This document shows, one piece after another, positions 4,020 to 23,123 of a stretch of 64,000 nucleotides of DNA. The notes under the pieces were generated by a model. It did not search any database, was not told where the DNA came from, and was given only the letters and a program-made list of their open reading frames with translations. The DNA is from Brachyspira aalborgi. Lineage in GTDB: Bacteria > Spirochaetota > Brachyspiria > Brachyspirales > Brachyspiraceae. Within the stretch, counting starts at the first letter, position 1. Every line of letters starts with the position of its first letter. The stretch spans positions 310,001 to 374,000 of the forward strand of contig NZ_SAXU01000001.1 in assembly GCF_008016455.1 (NCBI RefSeq). Reading direction: 5' to 3'. The position numbers and the translations under genes are program-made.

Positions 4020-4047
4020 TTGACTTATTTTTAATATATTGTATAAT
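4020..4047 (+). promoter_or_regulatory. Strong sigma-70 promoter of the repeat-leader operon
   Basis: TTGACT (4020-4025), 16-nt spacer, TATAAT (4042-4047). The expected transcription start is 4054-4055, exactly at the ATG of the mini-ORF that carries the AGCTC repeat, so that ORF would be leaderless. The 94 nt between clpC and this promoter (3926-4019) hold no other recognisable signal. Confidence 0.65.
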
Positions 4048-4054
4048 TTTAACT

Positions 4055-4141
4055 ATGTTAAATAAAAATGAAATACTAAAAACAATAAATTCTGCAGCAG
4101 CTCAGCTCAGCTCAGCTCAGCTCAGCTCAGCTTCACTTTAA
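4055..4141 (+). CDS. Leaderless mini-ORF containing AGCTC repeats
   Basis: An ATG at the predicted transcription start opens a 28-residue ORF beginning MLNKNEILKTINSA, then AQLSS repeats encoded by the pentanucleotide array, and stopping at TAA 4139-4141 seven bases after the array. No ribosome-binding site is present or possible. Adding one 5-nt unit moves the ribosome into a frame open to TGA 4323-4325, past the ATG of the next gene at 4306. Removing one unit moves it into a frame open to TAA 4285-4287, just before that gene. The product itself is unknown; a regulatory leader or a remnant of a longer gene are both possible. Confidence 0.4.
   Translation: MLNKNEILKTINSAAAQLSSAQLSSASL
4099..4132 (+). 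repeat. Pentanucleotide tandem repeat (AGCTC)n
   Basis: Six perfect AGCTC units plus AGCT (34 nt, about 6.8 copies), flanked by GCAGC and TCAC. Five is not a multiple of three, so copy-number change by slipped-strand mispairing shifts the frame of the mini-ORF that spans it. The array is strikingly GC-rich compared with the surrounding AT-rich DNA. Confidence 0.97.
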
Positions 4142-4305: not shown

Positions 4306-4557
4306 ATGTCAAATTTTTATTGTGAATATTGCGGGAAAAAGTTTACATCTATACCGCAACTAACAAGTTCGTTTTGTCCTAAACATCCTGACGGTTTTTC
4401 TAAAGGAAAGCATAAACTTTACGAAGGAAGCGAAAAGTCTCAATATTTTTGTAAATATTGCGGAAAGAAATTTTCTTCCCTACAACCGCTTACAGCCTCA
4501 TCATGTCCTCGACATCCAGATGGATTTTGTAAAGGTAAACATGCGCCAGCTTTATAA
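4306..4557 (+). CDS. Small protein with two tandem zinc-ribbon units
   Basis: An 83-residue protein made of two near-identical halves. Each half has CxxCGKKF, then CPxHPxGFxKGKH: Cys6, Cys9, Cys24, His27 in the first and Cys49, Cys52, Cys67, His70 in the second, with a further conserved His (36, 79). This arrangement would bind one zinc ion per half. It has no signal peptide or TM segment. AAAGGA at 4292-4297 supports ATG 4306. It is the first conventional gene of a closely spaced same-strand run to 9312, and sits behind the AGCTC repeat leader. The function is unknown; zinc binding is inferred from the motif. Confidence 0.85.
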   Translation: MSNFYCEYCGKKFTSIPQLTSSFCPKHPDGFSKGKHKLYEGSEKSQYFCKYCGKKFSSLQPLTASSCPRHPDGFCKGKHAPAL

Positions 4558-4944: not shown

Positions 4945-7872
4945 ATGGAAAACCTAACTAATGAAGAAAAAGATTATTATGAGCTTTTGGCAGATATGCT
5001 TGACGATGGCATTATAGACGGTAGCGAAAGAGATTTATTAAACAAACGAAAAGAAAAATATCAAATATCGGACGAAAGAGCAAAGGAAATAGAGGATTTT
5101 GCAAAGCAGGAATATTTGGAAAGTAAAACTCCGCAATTTGAAACTGACGGCGAAAAAGATTATTACGATTTATTAGTCGATATGCTTGACGATGGAGTTA
5201 TAGACGAAAGCGAAAGGAATATATTAAACAAGAGAAAAGAAAAATACGGAATTTCGGACGAAAGAGCGAAAGAACTTGAAAATTTTGCTAAAAGTTTAAA
5301 TACGCAAGAACAAGGCAAGCCTATTAAAATTAAGAAAAAAGTTATTAAGAAAGTGATTATAAAAGAAAAAGAAGAAAAAGAGGATGACGATTTATTTGAA
5401 CAAGGAAAATCTGATTATGAAAATGAGGAATATGATAAAGCCATAGAAATATTTAAAAAAGCGGTTGAATTAAATCCTGATAATGAATTTAATTGGAATT
5501 GGTTGGGTTGTTCATATAATAAAAACGGGCAATATAAAGAGGCTATTAACTCTTTATTAAAAGCAGTAGAATTAAATCCTAATAGTGAGGGTAATTATTA
5601 TTGGTTAGGACGCTCATATAATGATAACGAACAATATAAAGAGGCTATTAACTCTTTATTGAAAGCTGTAGAATTAAATCCTGATGATGAATTTAATTGG
5701 TATTGGTTAGGAACTTCATATAATCAAAATGGGCAATATCAAGAGGCTATAAATTCATTATTAAAAGCAGTAGAATTAAATCCTGATAATGAATTTAATT
5801 GGCAGTGGTTAGGAAGTTCATATAATCAAAATGGGCAATATCAAGAGGCTATTAACTCTTTATTAAAAGCCGTAGAATTAAATCCTGATGATTATTTAAA
5901 TTGGCATTGGTTAGGAAATTCATATTATGAAAATGGACAATATCAAGAGGCTATAAACTCTTTATTAAAAGCCGTAGAATTAAATCCTGATAATTATTTA
6001 AATTGGCAGTGGCTAGGACACTCATATTATTTTAATAATCAATATCAAGAGGCTATTAACTCTTTATTGAAAGCCGTAGAGTTAAATCCTGATAATGAAT
6101 TTAATTGTTATTTTTTAGGACACTCATATTATTTTAATAATCAATATCAAGAGGCTATTAACTCTTTATTAAAAGCTGTAGAATTAAATCCTGATAATGA
6201 ATTTAATTGGCAGTGGTTAGGAAGTTCATATTACAAAAATGGGCAATATCAAGAGGCTATAAATTCATTATTAAAAGCAGTAGAATTGAATCCTGATAGT
6301 AAATTTGGTTGGTTTGAATTAGGATGCTCATATAATCAAAATGGGCAATATCAAGAAGCTATCAATTCTTTATTAAAAGAGGTAGAATTAAATCCTGATG
6401 ATTATTTAAATTGGTTTTGGTTAGGACACTCATATTATAAAAATGGGCAATATCAAGAGGCTATTAACTCTTTATTAAAAGCTGTAGAATTAAATCCTAA
6501 TAGTGAGGGTAATTATTATTGGTTAGGTCGTTCATATAACGATAACAAACAATATAAAGAGGCAATAGAGTCTTTAGTTAAAGCCACTCAATTAGTTACA
6601 GATAGTCCCGAGTATTGGTATAGATTATGCATTGCATATAAAAATAATGAACAATATCAAGAAGCTATAAATTCTGGTTTAAAGGCTACGCAATTAAATC
6701 CCGATTATGCGGGTAATTGGCTTGAGTTGGGTTGTTCATATCAAAATAAAGAACAACATAAAGAAGAAATTTTAAGATTTTATAGTGGTTGTAAAATTAC
6801 AAAAAGTTATAAAAATATAGAAGCGATAAATTCTTTATTAAAAGCTTCAGAACTAAATCCTAATAATGCTGCAAATTGGTGTTGGTTGGGGCGTTCATAT
6901 ATTACTGCTGGAAATTACCAAAATGCAATAGAGTCTTTAGTTAAAGCCACTCAATTATATCCAGATAGTTCAGAGTATTGGTATAGGCTATGTATTGCAT
7001 ATTGTCGTAATAACCAATATCAAGATGCTATAAATTCTGGCTTAAAGGCTACACAATTAAATCCCAATTATGCTGGCAATTGGTTTGAATTAGGTGGAGC
7101 ATATAGAGATAATAAACAATACCAAAACGCAATAAATTCGTATCTAAAAGCGACTCAATTAAATCCTAACGATGACGAGTATTTTGTTTCATTAGGATGG
7201 GTTTATTATGATATGGAATTATATAAAGATGCGATGCAATCATTTATTGAAGCCTTAAAATTAAATGCTTCAAATAGTAATGCTTACTATGGAATTGGTA
7301 AAATTTTTATGGAAAGTAGCCAATATGATAAAGCTAAAGATGCAATTAAAAAAGCAATTGAATTAAATCCAAATATTAGCTTTTATAGTGACACTTTGAA
7401 TTTTTTATATTATCTAAATGAAGAATATGAGGAATTTATAAAATATTCTGAAAAATCTATTGAAAATGGAAATTTCGATGAAAATAGATATGGTGATTTA
7501 GGATATGCTTATTCTATTTTTGAAGATTATGATAATGCGGTTATTTCATACGAAAAATATATAGAATTTAGAAATTTAATTAAATTTAAAATAAGTTCTT
7601 ATGTTTGGAATAATTATGGCGTAGCTTTGGCAAATTTAGGAAGAATAGAAGAGGCTAGAAACGCTTATGCAAATGCCGTTAGAATAGACCCAGATAATGA
7701 AATAGCCAGAGATAATCTTAATAATATAGGATATTCAAGTAGAGGCTCTAATAATGGCGGTATTGTTTCTGGAATTTCAAGCACTATAGACGCAGTGAAT
7801 GAAGTATATAAAAAGGTAGACCCCGAAGTCGTTAAAGGCGTTGTGGATATTGTAAAATATTTTTTGAAGTGA
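4945..7872 (+). CDS. Large TPR repeat protein with duplicated N-terminal helical motif
   Basis: A 975-residue soluble protein. Residues ~3-52 and ~68-115 are two copies of a helical unit (EKDYYxLLxDMLDDGxIDxSER, then LLNKRKEKY and ISDERAKE) with an acidic DDGxID turn. A Lys/Glu-rich linker (~120-150) follows, then about 22 tetratricopeptide repeats of 34 residues. Units 2-11 are nearly identical (consensus QYQEAINSLLKAVELNPD). Units 12-13 and 15-16 form a duplicated pair, and unit 14 carries an irregular ~19-residue insertion (near LRFYSGCKITKSYKN). TPRs are protein-interaction scaffolds; no catalytic domain or signal peptide is seen. GGAG 8 nt upstream supports the start. Confidence 0.9.
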   Translation: MENLTNEEKDYYELLADMLDDGIIDGSERDLLNKRKEKYQISDERAKEIEDFAKQEYLESKTPQFETDGEKDYYDLLVDMLDDGVIDESERNILNKRKEKYGISDERAKELENFAKSLNTQEQGKPIKIKKKVIKKVIIKEKEEKEDDDLFEQGKSDYENEEYDKAIEIFKKAVELNPDNEFNWNWLGCSYNKNGQYKEAINSLLKAVELNPNSEGNYYWLGRSYNDNEQYKEAINSLLKAVELNPDDEFNWYWLGTSYNQNGQYQEAINSLLKAVELNPDNEFNWQWLGSSYNQNGQYQEAINSLLKAVELNPDDYLNWHWLGNSYYENGQYQEAINSLLKAVELNPDNYLNWQWLGHSYYFNNQYQEAINSLLKAVELNPDNEFNCYFLGHSYYFNNQYQEAINSLLKAVELNPDNEFNWQWLGSSYYKNGQYQEAINSLLKAVELNPDSKFGWFELGCSYNQNGQYQEAINSLLKEVELNPDDYLNWFWLGHSYYKNGQYQEAINSLLKAVELNPNSEGNYYWLGRSYNDNKQYKEAIESLVKATQLVTDSPEYWYRLCIAYKNNEQYQEAINSGLKATQLNPDYAGNWLELGCSYQNKEQHKEEILRFYSGCKITKSYKNIEAINSLLKASELNPNNAANWCWLGRSYITAGNYQNAIESLVKATQLYPDSSEYWYRLCIAYCRNNQYQDAINSGLKATQLNPNYAGNWFELGGAYRDNKQYQNAINSYLKATQLNPNDDEYFVSLGWVYYDMELYKDAMQSFIEALKLNASNSNAYYGIGKIFMESSQYDKAKDAIKKAIELNPNISFYSDTLNFLYYLNEEYEEFIKYSEKSIENGNFDENRYGDLGYAYSIFEDYDNAVISYEKYIEFRNLIKFKISSYVWNNYGVALANLGRIEEARNAYANAVRIDPDNEIARDNLNNIGYSSRGSNNGGIVSGISSTIDAVNEVYKKVDPEVVKGVVDIVKYFLK
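5494..6513 (+). repeat. Tandem 102-bp coding repeats (TPR units 2-11)
   Basis: Ten consecutive 102-bp units inside the TPR gene are highly similar at DNA level, with long identical stretches such as GAGGCTATTAACTCTTTATT recurring at 102-bp spacing. Unequal recombination between them would change length in whole 34-residue steps and keep the frame. Confidence 0.9.
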
Positions 7873-21936: not shown

Positions 21937-21964
21937 TTGACAATTATTTATTTTAATGTATAAT
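21937..21964 (+). promoter_or_regulatory. Strong sigma-70 promoter upstream of the second repeat leader
   Basis: TTGACA (21937-21942), 16-nt spacer, TATAAT (21959-21964), a near-consensus promoter. The expected transcription start is about 21971, three bases before an ATG at 21974. Confidence 0.7.
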
Positions 21965-21973
21965 AATTTGCAA

Positions 21974-22150
21974 ATGACAATATTTAATTGTATTATTAAT
22001 AAAGTAAACTTGAGAATTCGCAAGCCAAGCCAAGCCAAGCCAAGCCAAGCCAAGCCAAGCCATAATTTTATCATTTTCTCTATTATTAAAAATAGAGACT
22101 TTTTCATTGCAATTTTTTATCTTTTGCGAGGTATAAAATATTATGCCTAA
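21974..22150 (+). CDS. Near-leaderless mini-ORF containing CAAGC repeats
   Basis: A 58-residue ORF starting MTIFNCIINKVNLRIR, then KPSQA repeats encoded by the pentanucleotide array, then HNFIIFSIIKNRDFF, and ending at TAA 22148-22150, which overlaps the glycosyltransferase ATG (22143) by 8 bp. With one more repeat unit the frame would stop at TAA 22134-22136, 6 nt before that ATG. With one fewer unit it would stop at TAA 22063-22065, right after the array. There is no ribosome-binding site. I regard it as a candidate leader for translational coupling; its peptide is not recognisable. Confidence 0.4.
   Translation: MTIFNCIINKVNLRIRKPSQAKPSQAKPSHNFIIFSIIKNRDFFIAIFYLLRGIKYYA
22021..22062 (+). 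repeat. Pentanucleotide tandem repeat (CAAGC)n
   Basis: Eight perfect CAAGC units plus CA (42 nt, 8.4 copies), GC-rich in an AT-rich setting, located between a strong promoter and the glycosyltransferase start. Length changes by slippage would shift the reading frame of the spanning mini-ORF. Confidence 0.97.
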
Positions 22151-23123
22151 CGAAAGATTAAAAAAATACTTAAACGATATTGTCTGGTGGATACCGTCAA
22201 GAAAATTGAGAGATTTTATTAGAGAATTAGTAGATACAATTTTAGAAATCAAAGAACAAAATGATATTTTATTAAAATTATTAGCTCAAAATAATAATCT
22301 TGAATACATAATTATAAAAATGACTGGCGGATTTGCTGACCAACTTTATTTATATAGAGTTGGATATTCTATTGAAAAATTATATGGAAAGAAAGTTTTA
22401 TATGATATTTCTTGGTATAATTATAATGGAAAAGATGATATCGGTAAATATAATCGTAATTTTGAAATTTTAAATATATTTGAAGATTTTTCTTTTAAAA
22501 TCGCTTCTAAAAATATAATATCAATCGCTAAAAGTTGTTATTTTATAGAAGGGTATAAATATAAAAATATTGATATAACGGATATAATTAAGTATAACAA
22601 ATTTATTTATTGCGATAATGGAGTTTGGAGAGCAAGTATAAAACAATTAGATTTTAACGAAATATTTGATTTAGACAAATATATTCTTCCAAAATTAGAT
22701 AACGACAATAAAAAGATTTACGAAGATATTAAAAATTGTAAACATTCTGTAGCCTGTCATGTAAGAAGAAACGATTATTTAAAAGTAAATTATAGACGAT
22801 ATAGTTTAGACGAAAATTATTTTATAAAAGCGATTGAAAAAATCAATAAACAAATTAGACAAAAATTAAAAATATATTTCTTTTCTGACGATATGGATTG
22901 GGTAAAAGAAAAATTAATTCCTTTAGTGAAAGATAAATACGATTATTTGGCAGTAGATATAAACGACAACGATAAAGGATATTTCGATTTTTATTTAATA
23001 AGCAATTGCAAATATCAAATCGCTTCAGAAGGAAGATTTTGCGAAACCGCTCATATATTCAATAAATATCAAAATAAAATTCTCATAACTCCAAATGATA
23101 TAGATAAAAAATATTTTAGATAA
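22143..23123 (+). CDS. GT11-family glycosyltransferase (fucosyltransferase-like)
   Basis: A 326-residue soluble glycosyltransferase resembling alpha-1,2-fucosyltransferases. The N-terminal TGGFADQLYLYRVGYSIEKL (about 60-79) corresponds to the family's GGLGNQ(M/L)FQY motif, with Asp in place of Asn. HVRRNDYLK (about 206-214) corresponds to the GDP-fucose binding HVRRGDY motif. FFSDDMDWVKEKL and the C-terminal SNCKYQIASEGRFCETAHIF are also family-typical. GAGGT at 22129-22133 supports ATG 22143. It probably modifies a surface glycan, and the repeat leader upstream would make it phase-variable. The donor sugar is an inference. Confidence 0.82.
   Translation: MPNERLKKYLNDIVWWIPSRKLRDFIRELVDTILEIKEQNDILLKLLAQNNNLEYIIIKMTGGFADQLYLYRVGYSIEKLYGKKVLYDISWYNYNGKDDIGKYNRNFEILNIFEDFSFKIASKNIISIAKSCYFIEGYKYKNIDITDIIKYNKFIYCDNGVWRASIKQLDFNEIFDLDKYILPKLDNDNKKIYEDIKNCKHSVACHVRRNDYLKVNYRRYSLDENYFIKAIEKINKQIRQKLKIYFFSDDMDWVKEKLIPLVKDKYDYLAVDINDNDKGYFDFYLISNCKYQIASEGRFCETAHIFNKYQNKILITPNDIDKKYFR

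Follow-up and report, generated by a model that had tools for sequence, protein, structure and literature searches.

In classical translational phase variation, short repeats lie inside the coding sequence of the gene they switch, as do the CTCTT units of the Neisseria opa genes and the tetramers of Haemophilus lic. In trp-type attenuation and in translational coupling, hairpin formation in the RNA depends on where the ribosome stands on the leader. The closest described systems are the pil1 and pil3 loci of Streptococcus gallolyticus, where a GCAGA array lies in a leader peptide and its long frames prevent the terminator, i.e., transcription attenuation (Danne et al. 2014; PMC3894217). There, the mechanism was tested by hairpin deletion, mutation of the start codon and the placing of stop codons (PMC3894217).

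In the window (the whole 64,000-nt stretch of Brachyspira aalborgi DNA that was analysed), one locus shares with pil1 and pil3 a promoter, a short leader ORF with a pentanucleotide array whose repeat number sets the stop, a hairpin located between the array and the gene, a target with a link to the surface and long frames that correspond to ON, the last two here by prediction. From its sequence anatomy, we consider the locus to be a phase-variable leader ORF with a probability of roughly 0.75, in which gain or loss of repeats probably switches a glycosyltransferase gene on or off. Its elements are as follows.

21937-21964, plus strand: sigma-70 type promoter, TTGACA (21937-21942), 16-nt spacer, TATAAT (21959-21964); 12 of 12 consensus positions
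21974-22150, plus strand: leader mini-ORF with a predicted leaderless start; in the present frame 58 codons and TAA
22021-22062, plus strand: pentanucleotide array (CAAGC)8.4, 100% pure, stop-free in all three frames
22063-22065, plus strand: stop reached with one unit fewer; predicted OFF state, 11 nt upstream of hairpin 1
22077-22098, plus strand: hairpin 1, TCTCTATT-ATTAAA-AATAGAGA, then CTTTTTCA; weak terminator-like attenuator candidate
22108-22128, plus strand: hairpin 2, weak, about -4 kcal/mol
22128-22131, plus strand: Shine-Dalgarno (SD) sequence GAGG of the glycosyltransferase gene
22129-22148, plus strand: hairpin 3, AGGUAUAA-AAUA-UUAUGCCU, -6.4 to -7.5 kcal/mol
22134-22136, plus strand: stop reached with one unit more; ON or partial state predicted, beyond hairpins 1 and 2
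22143-23123, plus strand: target gene, glycosyltransferase family 11 protein of 326 aa (Pfam PF01531, E 4e-14)
22148-22150, plus strand: present-frame stop TAA, overlapping the glycosyltransferase ATG (22143) by 8 nt

A promoter score as good as the one found here (0.3 or less) occurs upstream of 0.45% of random positions. The mini-ORF lacks an SD sequence, and its ATG (21974-21976) is located 9 nt past the -10 element, within about 3 nt of the predicted transcript start. The array begins 47 nt after the A of this ATG, and an array of such purity is not random. Since the 5-nt unit is not divisible by three, the number of units determines where the ORF ends (22065, 22136 or 22150): two of the three frames run to the start of the glycosyltransferase gene, while the third stops directly after the array, and the present array length predicts the ON state. 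The coordinates of promoter, ATG, 8.4-unit array and three stops given in a first-pass annotation all proved exact in our sequence, ORF and tandem-repeat checks, and its account of the frames, with two states open to the gene and one closed, was borne out. An interval of 80 nt separates the array from the gene, and the glycosyltransferase is not fused to the mini-ORF in any frame; classical in-gene repeat phase variation was rejected for this locus, the array being outside the target coding sequence. Antisense ORFs running through the array are incidental.

The target was described in the same annotation as a surface glycosyltransferase: the enzyme class is confirmed by the Pfam match, the surface location is presumptive. 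Its nearest named relative is a B. catarrhinii protein (75% identical), and a motif alignment revealed an N-terminal IVWWIP-type motif common to other phase-variable transferases.

Another repeat leader, the first of the window (4020-4141), consists of TTGACT-N16-TATAAT, a leaderless ATG at 4055 and (CAGCT)7.0 at 4098-4132. Its present frame stops at 4141 and is predicted OFF, and the two other frames reach the start of the gene at 4306-4557, which specifies a protein of 83 aa carrying two zinc-binding motifs of C2H2-like type. Adjoining this leader, long 102-nt tandem repeats occur in a coding region (5420-6675) with LNPDNEFNW-type, TPR-like segments.

The first sign of a wider set was that a leader search of the own genome matched many other arrays. 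Pattern searches for GC- and TC-containing pentamer units, after which each stretch was read, yielded about 60 perfect pentamer arrays of over a dozen different units. A near-consensus promoter (simple score at most 2, reached by 6.6% of random positions) was found just upstream of 51 arrays; one of these, L005 at 2004424, was discarded because its minus-strand call is an artefact, the array belonging to the plus strand and being split by an assembly gap, so that about 50 promoter-bearing arrays remain. With L005 left out, all units are stop-free in three frames in the promoter sense, and 16 entries contain stops in antisense: this is the expected look of an array that needs to be translated in any frame. 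The L005 region itself (G000 C1 2004283-2004464) has a run of Ns between two TCTCA array stretches, upstream of an FkbM methyltransferase gene; the run marks a gap in the assembly, either within a long array or next to it.

Taken alone, the two open frames over the 80-nt interval at the window locus are not significant (0.575 of dinucleotide shuffles). The significance of frame openness stems from the genome-wide set. A next gene could be defined for 43 loci, and 42 of these leave one frame or more free of stops between the array and a point at most about 25 nt from the start of that gene, against 7.8 expected from dinucleotide shuffles of the same intervals. The open intervals between array and next gene start span 61-274 nt. 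All 32 intervals of at least 120 nt are open (1.1 expected), as are all 17 that remain (0.6 expected) when the CAAAG family, whose members are not independent, is taken out; this CAAAG-free set covers a dozen units. At predicted OFF loci, the stop is found 0-32 nt past the array in all but one, and such stops close behind the array are a further sign that frame matters.

Judged from this genome-wide anatomy, the earlier proposal of phase variation via a translated leader is strongly supported. It could be objected that the array, as a mutational hot spot, is neutral and that the glycosyltransferase is expressed constitutively from its own SD sequence, given that GAGG is at a workable distance from the gene start and that chance can account for the openness of the window locus taken by itself. 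We regard this as improbable: some 50 loci with unrelated units and genes repeat the layout of promoter, ORF, array and open frame, and the SD sequence in question is predicted to be buried (see below).

In 18 of 50 leaders, the ATG is located 6-9 nt past the -10 element; none has it at 10-22 nt, and in the remainder the distance is at least 23 nt, promoters and gene starts being rule-based predictions throughout (the gene starts of L014, L093 and L102 are possibly wrong). An SD sequence is absent from all 18 leaders with a close ATG and present in 19 of the 32 others. From the two-peaked distances and the missing SD sequences, the predicted leaderless start therefore emerges as a real, recurring class among the leaders. 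Intrinsic terminators were rejected as a universal part in the window's own genome (median shuffle p 0.24; p at most 0.1 in 14 of 43). ATGA overlaps were set aside as proof of coupling because many gene starts have an A directly behind the ATG.

The genes downstream of the switches encode glycosyltransferases of families 8, 10, 11 and 61, FkbM methyltransferases, beta-barrel and LPP20-like proteins and dynamin-like GTPases, as well as many short proteins with lipoprotein-like signal sequences, as judged by eye from the sequence. Several of the target transferases share the N-terminal motif IVWWIPFRKLRD. In a subset of lipoprotein leaders, the open frame fuses in frame to the gene.

The paralogue L009 is 97% identical to the window locus in the DNA from promoter to array and carries 5.0 units versus 8.4, and the CAAAG family has near-identical flanks around 3.8 to 19.8 units; by these comparisons, made across loci of one assembly (one assembly per species), array length moves faster than the flanks. 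The ON state is predicted for 8 of 43 leaders, the window locus among them, against 17 expected for random frames. The CAAAG-family leaders (L011-L019, L093, L098 and others), many of them before lipoprotein-like genes and several with an open frame that fuses to the gene, are predicted OFF in 16 of 16 cases, and could possibly constitute a silent repertoire.

Arrays of another kind were seen at the 3' ends of long ORFs: these are purine-rich (GCAGA, AGAAG, AGACG and, in up to 52 copies, AGAGA), and the ORFs stop 0-10 codons past the array. They may set C-terminal tails or the coupling to the next gene. Examples in G000 C1 are:

L085 4974, L086 151734, L088 534931, L089 592758: purine-rich 3'-end arrays
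L096 1553372, L111 144906, L112 149309, L110 133884: purine-rich 3'-end arrays

The regularity with which all frames of the CAAGC array encode a KPSQA repeat peptide might suggest that the mini-ORF makes a functional peptide, or else that the DNA or RNA sequence of the array has an effect of its own, e.g., by spacing or protein binding. Both are very improbable: over a dozen units are used across the loci and the B. catarrhinii orthologue has ATACT in this position, so that neither the peptide nor the array sequence is conserved, and the array is downstream of the promoter. A functional leader peptide was rejected because the units turn over between loci.

The RNA between array and gene (22063-22150) is more stable than any of 200 shuffles (z -4.25) and folds into the three predicted hairpins. 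Hairpin 1 (-7.6 kcal/mol; 1 of 200 shuffles equally stable) contains only two G-C pairs, and a strict terminator scan of the window found none, hairpin 1 included. Hairpin 3 is predicted to pair the AGG of the SD sequence with the CCU just 3' of the AUG, so that the glycosyltransferase AUG is inside the stem. With -14.8 kcal/mol, the initiation region of the window gene has the lowest energy of 71 array genes (median of 26 control genes, -0.8). Two features expected of translational coupling are present at the window locus: a leader stop that overlaps the gene start and, by prediction, an initiation site buried in structure. Burial of SD and AUG as a universal part of the switches was rejected, SD accessibility in the set being no different from the controls; since it is not general in the set, the burial seen at the window locus may be a local accident.

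The B. catarrhinii orthologue carries (ATACT)6.2 and an interval of 81 nt (80 nt here); one of its frames continues to the same TAA that overlaps the gene, and the mini-ORF frame is OFF. Its contig starts 17 nt before the mini-ORF ATG, the promoter region falling outside. Apart from a single A-U to G-U substitution, the SD/AUG hairpin keeps its pairing in the orthologue, and no hairpin 1 can be recognised there.

We propose that the strong promoter drives a short ORF in which the length of the CAAGC array would set the frame of the departing ribosomes, and that slipped-strand gain or loss of units would change this frame. In the two long frames, ribosomes would cross hairpin 1 and enter or cross hairpin 3, so that transcription and translation of the gene would follow (ON); the short frame would release them at 22065, the hairpins would form, and the gene would be OFF or low. 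The larger step at the window locus is, by a little better than even odds, the opening of the SD/AUG hairpin, i.e., translational coupling. We lean to it because the orthologue keeps this hairpin, hairpin 1 is unrecognisable there and the strict scan came out empty. Attenuation at hairpin 1 is a tentative second step and Rho-type polarity an improbable third; the three can act together. A caution for the switch reading is the short distance of 11 nt from the OFF stop to hairpin 1; S. gallolyticus remained ON with a stop 4 nt ahead of its hairpin (PMC3894217).

Relatives across the genus Brachyspira bear on the relative weight of these steps. We took 60 upstream regions of motif-bearing genes, in 47 of which the gene start could be set; 29 of the 47 have arrays, whose units measure 4, 5 or 7 nt and never 6 or 9 nt, and 18 are array-less. 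The absence of 6- and 9-nt units is another sign that frame matters. Units of 4 nt occur in G010 and G019 and units of 7 nt in G000 and G014, with the same gene family downstream. Between species, the number of GC-containing pentamer arrays per genome differs by a factor of more than ten, from 3 to 55 (G000-G025).

Strong intrinsic terminators are present between array and gene in 18 of the 29 array-bearing relatives versus 1 of the 18 array-less ones (p 3.8e-5), and their stems vary in sequence, e.g., AACCTATGTTGCAATACTATATTGCAGCATAGGTT-TTTTATTT and AGCCAGAGCATAAATTTATGCTCTGGCT-TTTTTTAT. In leaders with a strong terminator, the long frame frequently stops within the hairpin, and it reaches the gene in 10 of 18, versus 52 of 54 leaders with a weak or missing terminator (p 1.2e-4); differences in species and gene family confound this contrast. 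The pattern is suggestive of two sub-designs, one an attenuator for which ribosomes would need only to reach the hairpin, the other dependent on their arrival at the gene.

These terminators, the long frames that end within them and the proven precedent of pil1 (PMC3894217) favour pure transcription attenuation in the pil1 style, with hairpin 1 as the intrinsic terminator and the SD/AUG hairpin irrelevant. For the window locus, we nevertheless consider it unlikely, as hairpin 1 is weak, with its two G-C pairs, and fails the strict scan, and as the orthologue keeps the SD/AUG hairpin and the overlapping stop rather than hairpin 1. Alternatively, the untranslated leader RNA exposed in the short frame could allow Rho to halt transcription before the gene. 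Rho is encoded in the genome (TIGR00767 over cut-off), and most leaders of this genome are without strong terminators yet open up to the gene, as Rho protection would need; the unprotected stretch at the window locus is A/U-rich and, at only about 80 nt, short for Rho loading, and polarity leaves the SD/AUG hairpin unexplained, which makes this mechanism improbable here.

For the leader switch, the first-pass annotation had put forward delivery of ribosomes to the gene. The frames agree with this; as the sole or best-proven step it does not stand, given the pil1/pil3 precedent, the two hairpins, the terminators of the relatives and the roughly 50 arrays. That reading missed the attenuator-like hairpin, the SD/AUG hairpin and the relatives' terminators. 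The leaderless start of the coupled design that it called unusual is upheld as a class (18 of 50 leaders). Also absent from that reading were the pil1/pil3 precedent for the leader-ORF design and the place of this locus in a set of about 50 leader arrays.

If our reading is true, a mechanism known from two Streptococcus loci would be a general control principle in another phylum, and the ON or OFF state of each gene could be predicted from plain genome sequence. Leader switches before sugar-modifying enzymes, lipoproteins and outer-membrane proteins would help to explain antigenic and lipooligosaccharide diversity. A literature search, in which few subscription journals were covered, returned no description of such leader phase variation for Brachyspira surface structures.

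Compared with the opa and lic type, the Brachyspira switches have in common units not divisible by three, frame switching and targets in surface glycosylation or antigens. Unlike there, the repeats occupy an ORF of their own ahead of the gene, and every state yields the same target protein, except in the subset of fused lipoprotein leaders. As in trp-type attenuation and in coupling, the position of the ribosome would govern a hairpin, but the signal at the window locus would be a heritable, random change in repeat number and not amino-acid shortage or an upstream operon gene.

By analogy, the design of the window locus would work like the pil1 type, though its terminator is only a weak candidate hairpin. 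In pil1 and pil3, which are the two loci known, the leader ORF has an SD sequence and the terminator is strong (-18.7 kcal/mol), whereas the window locus has a predicted leaderless ORF, the weak hairpin 1, an added SD/AUG hairpin and a frame that reaches the gene start, and about 50 loci of the same design are present in one genome. We consider the chances even that Brachyspira operates some 50 random leader-ORF switches, many of them leaderless, and that many of the switches lack a terminator and instead need ribosomes to arrive at the gene start, for coupling or Rho protection, which would set them apart from the S. gallolyticus attenuator.
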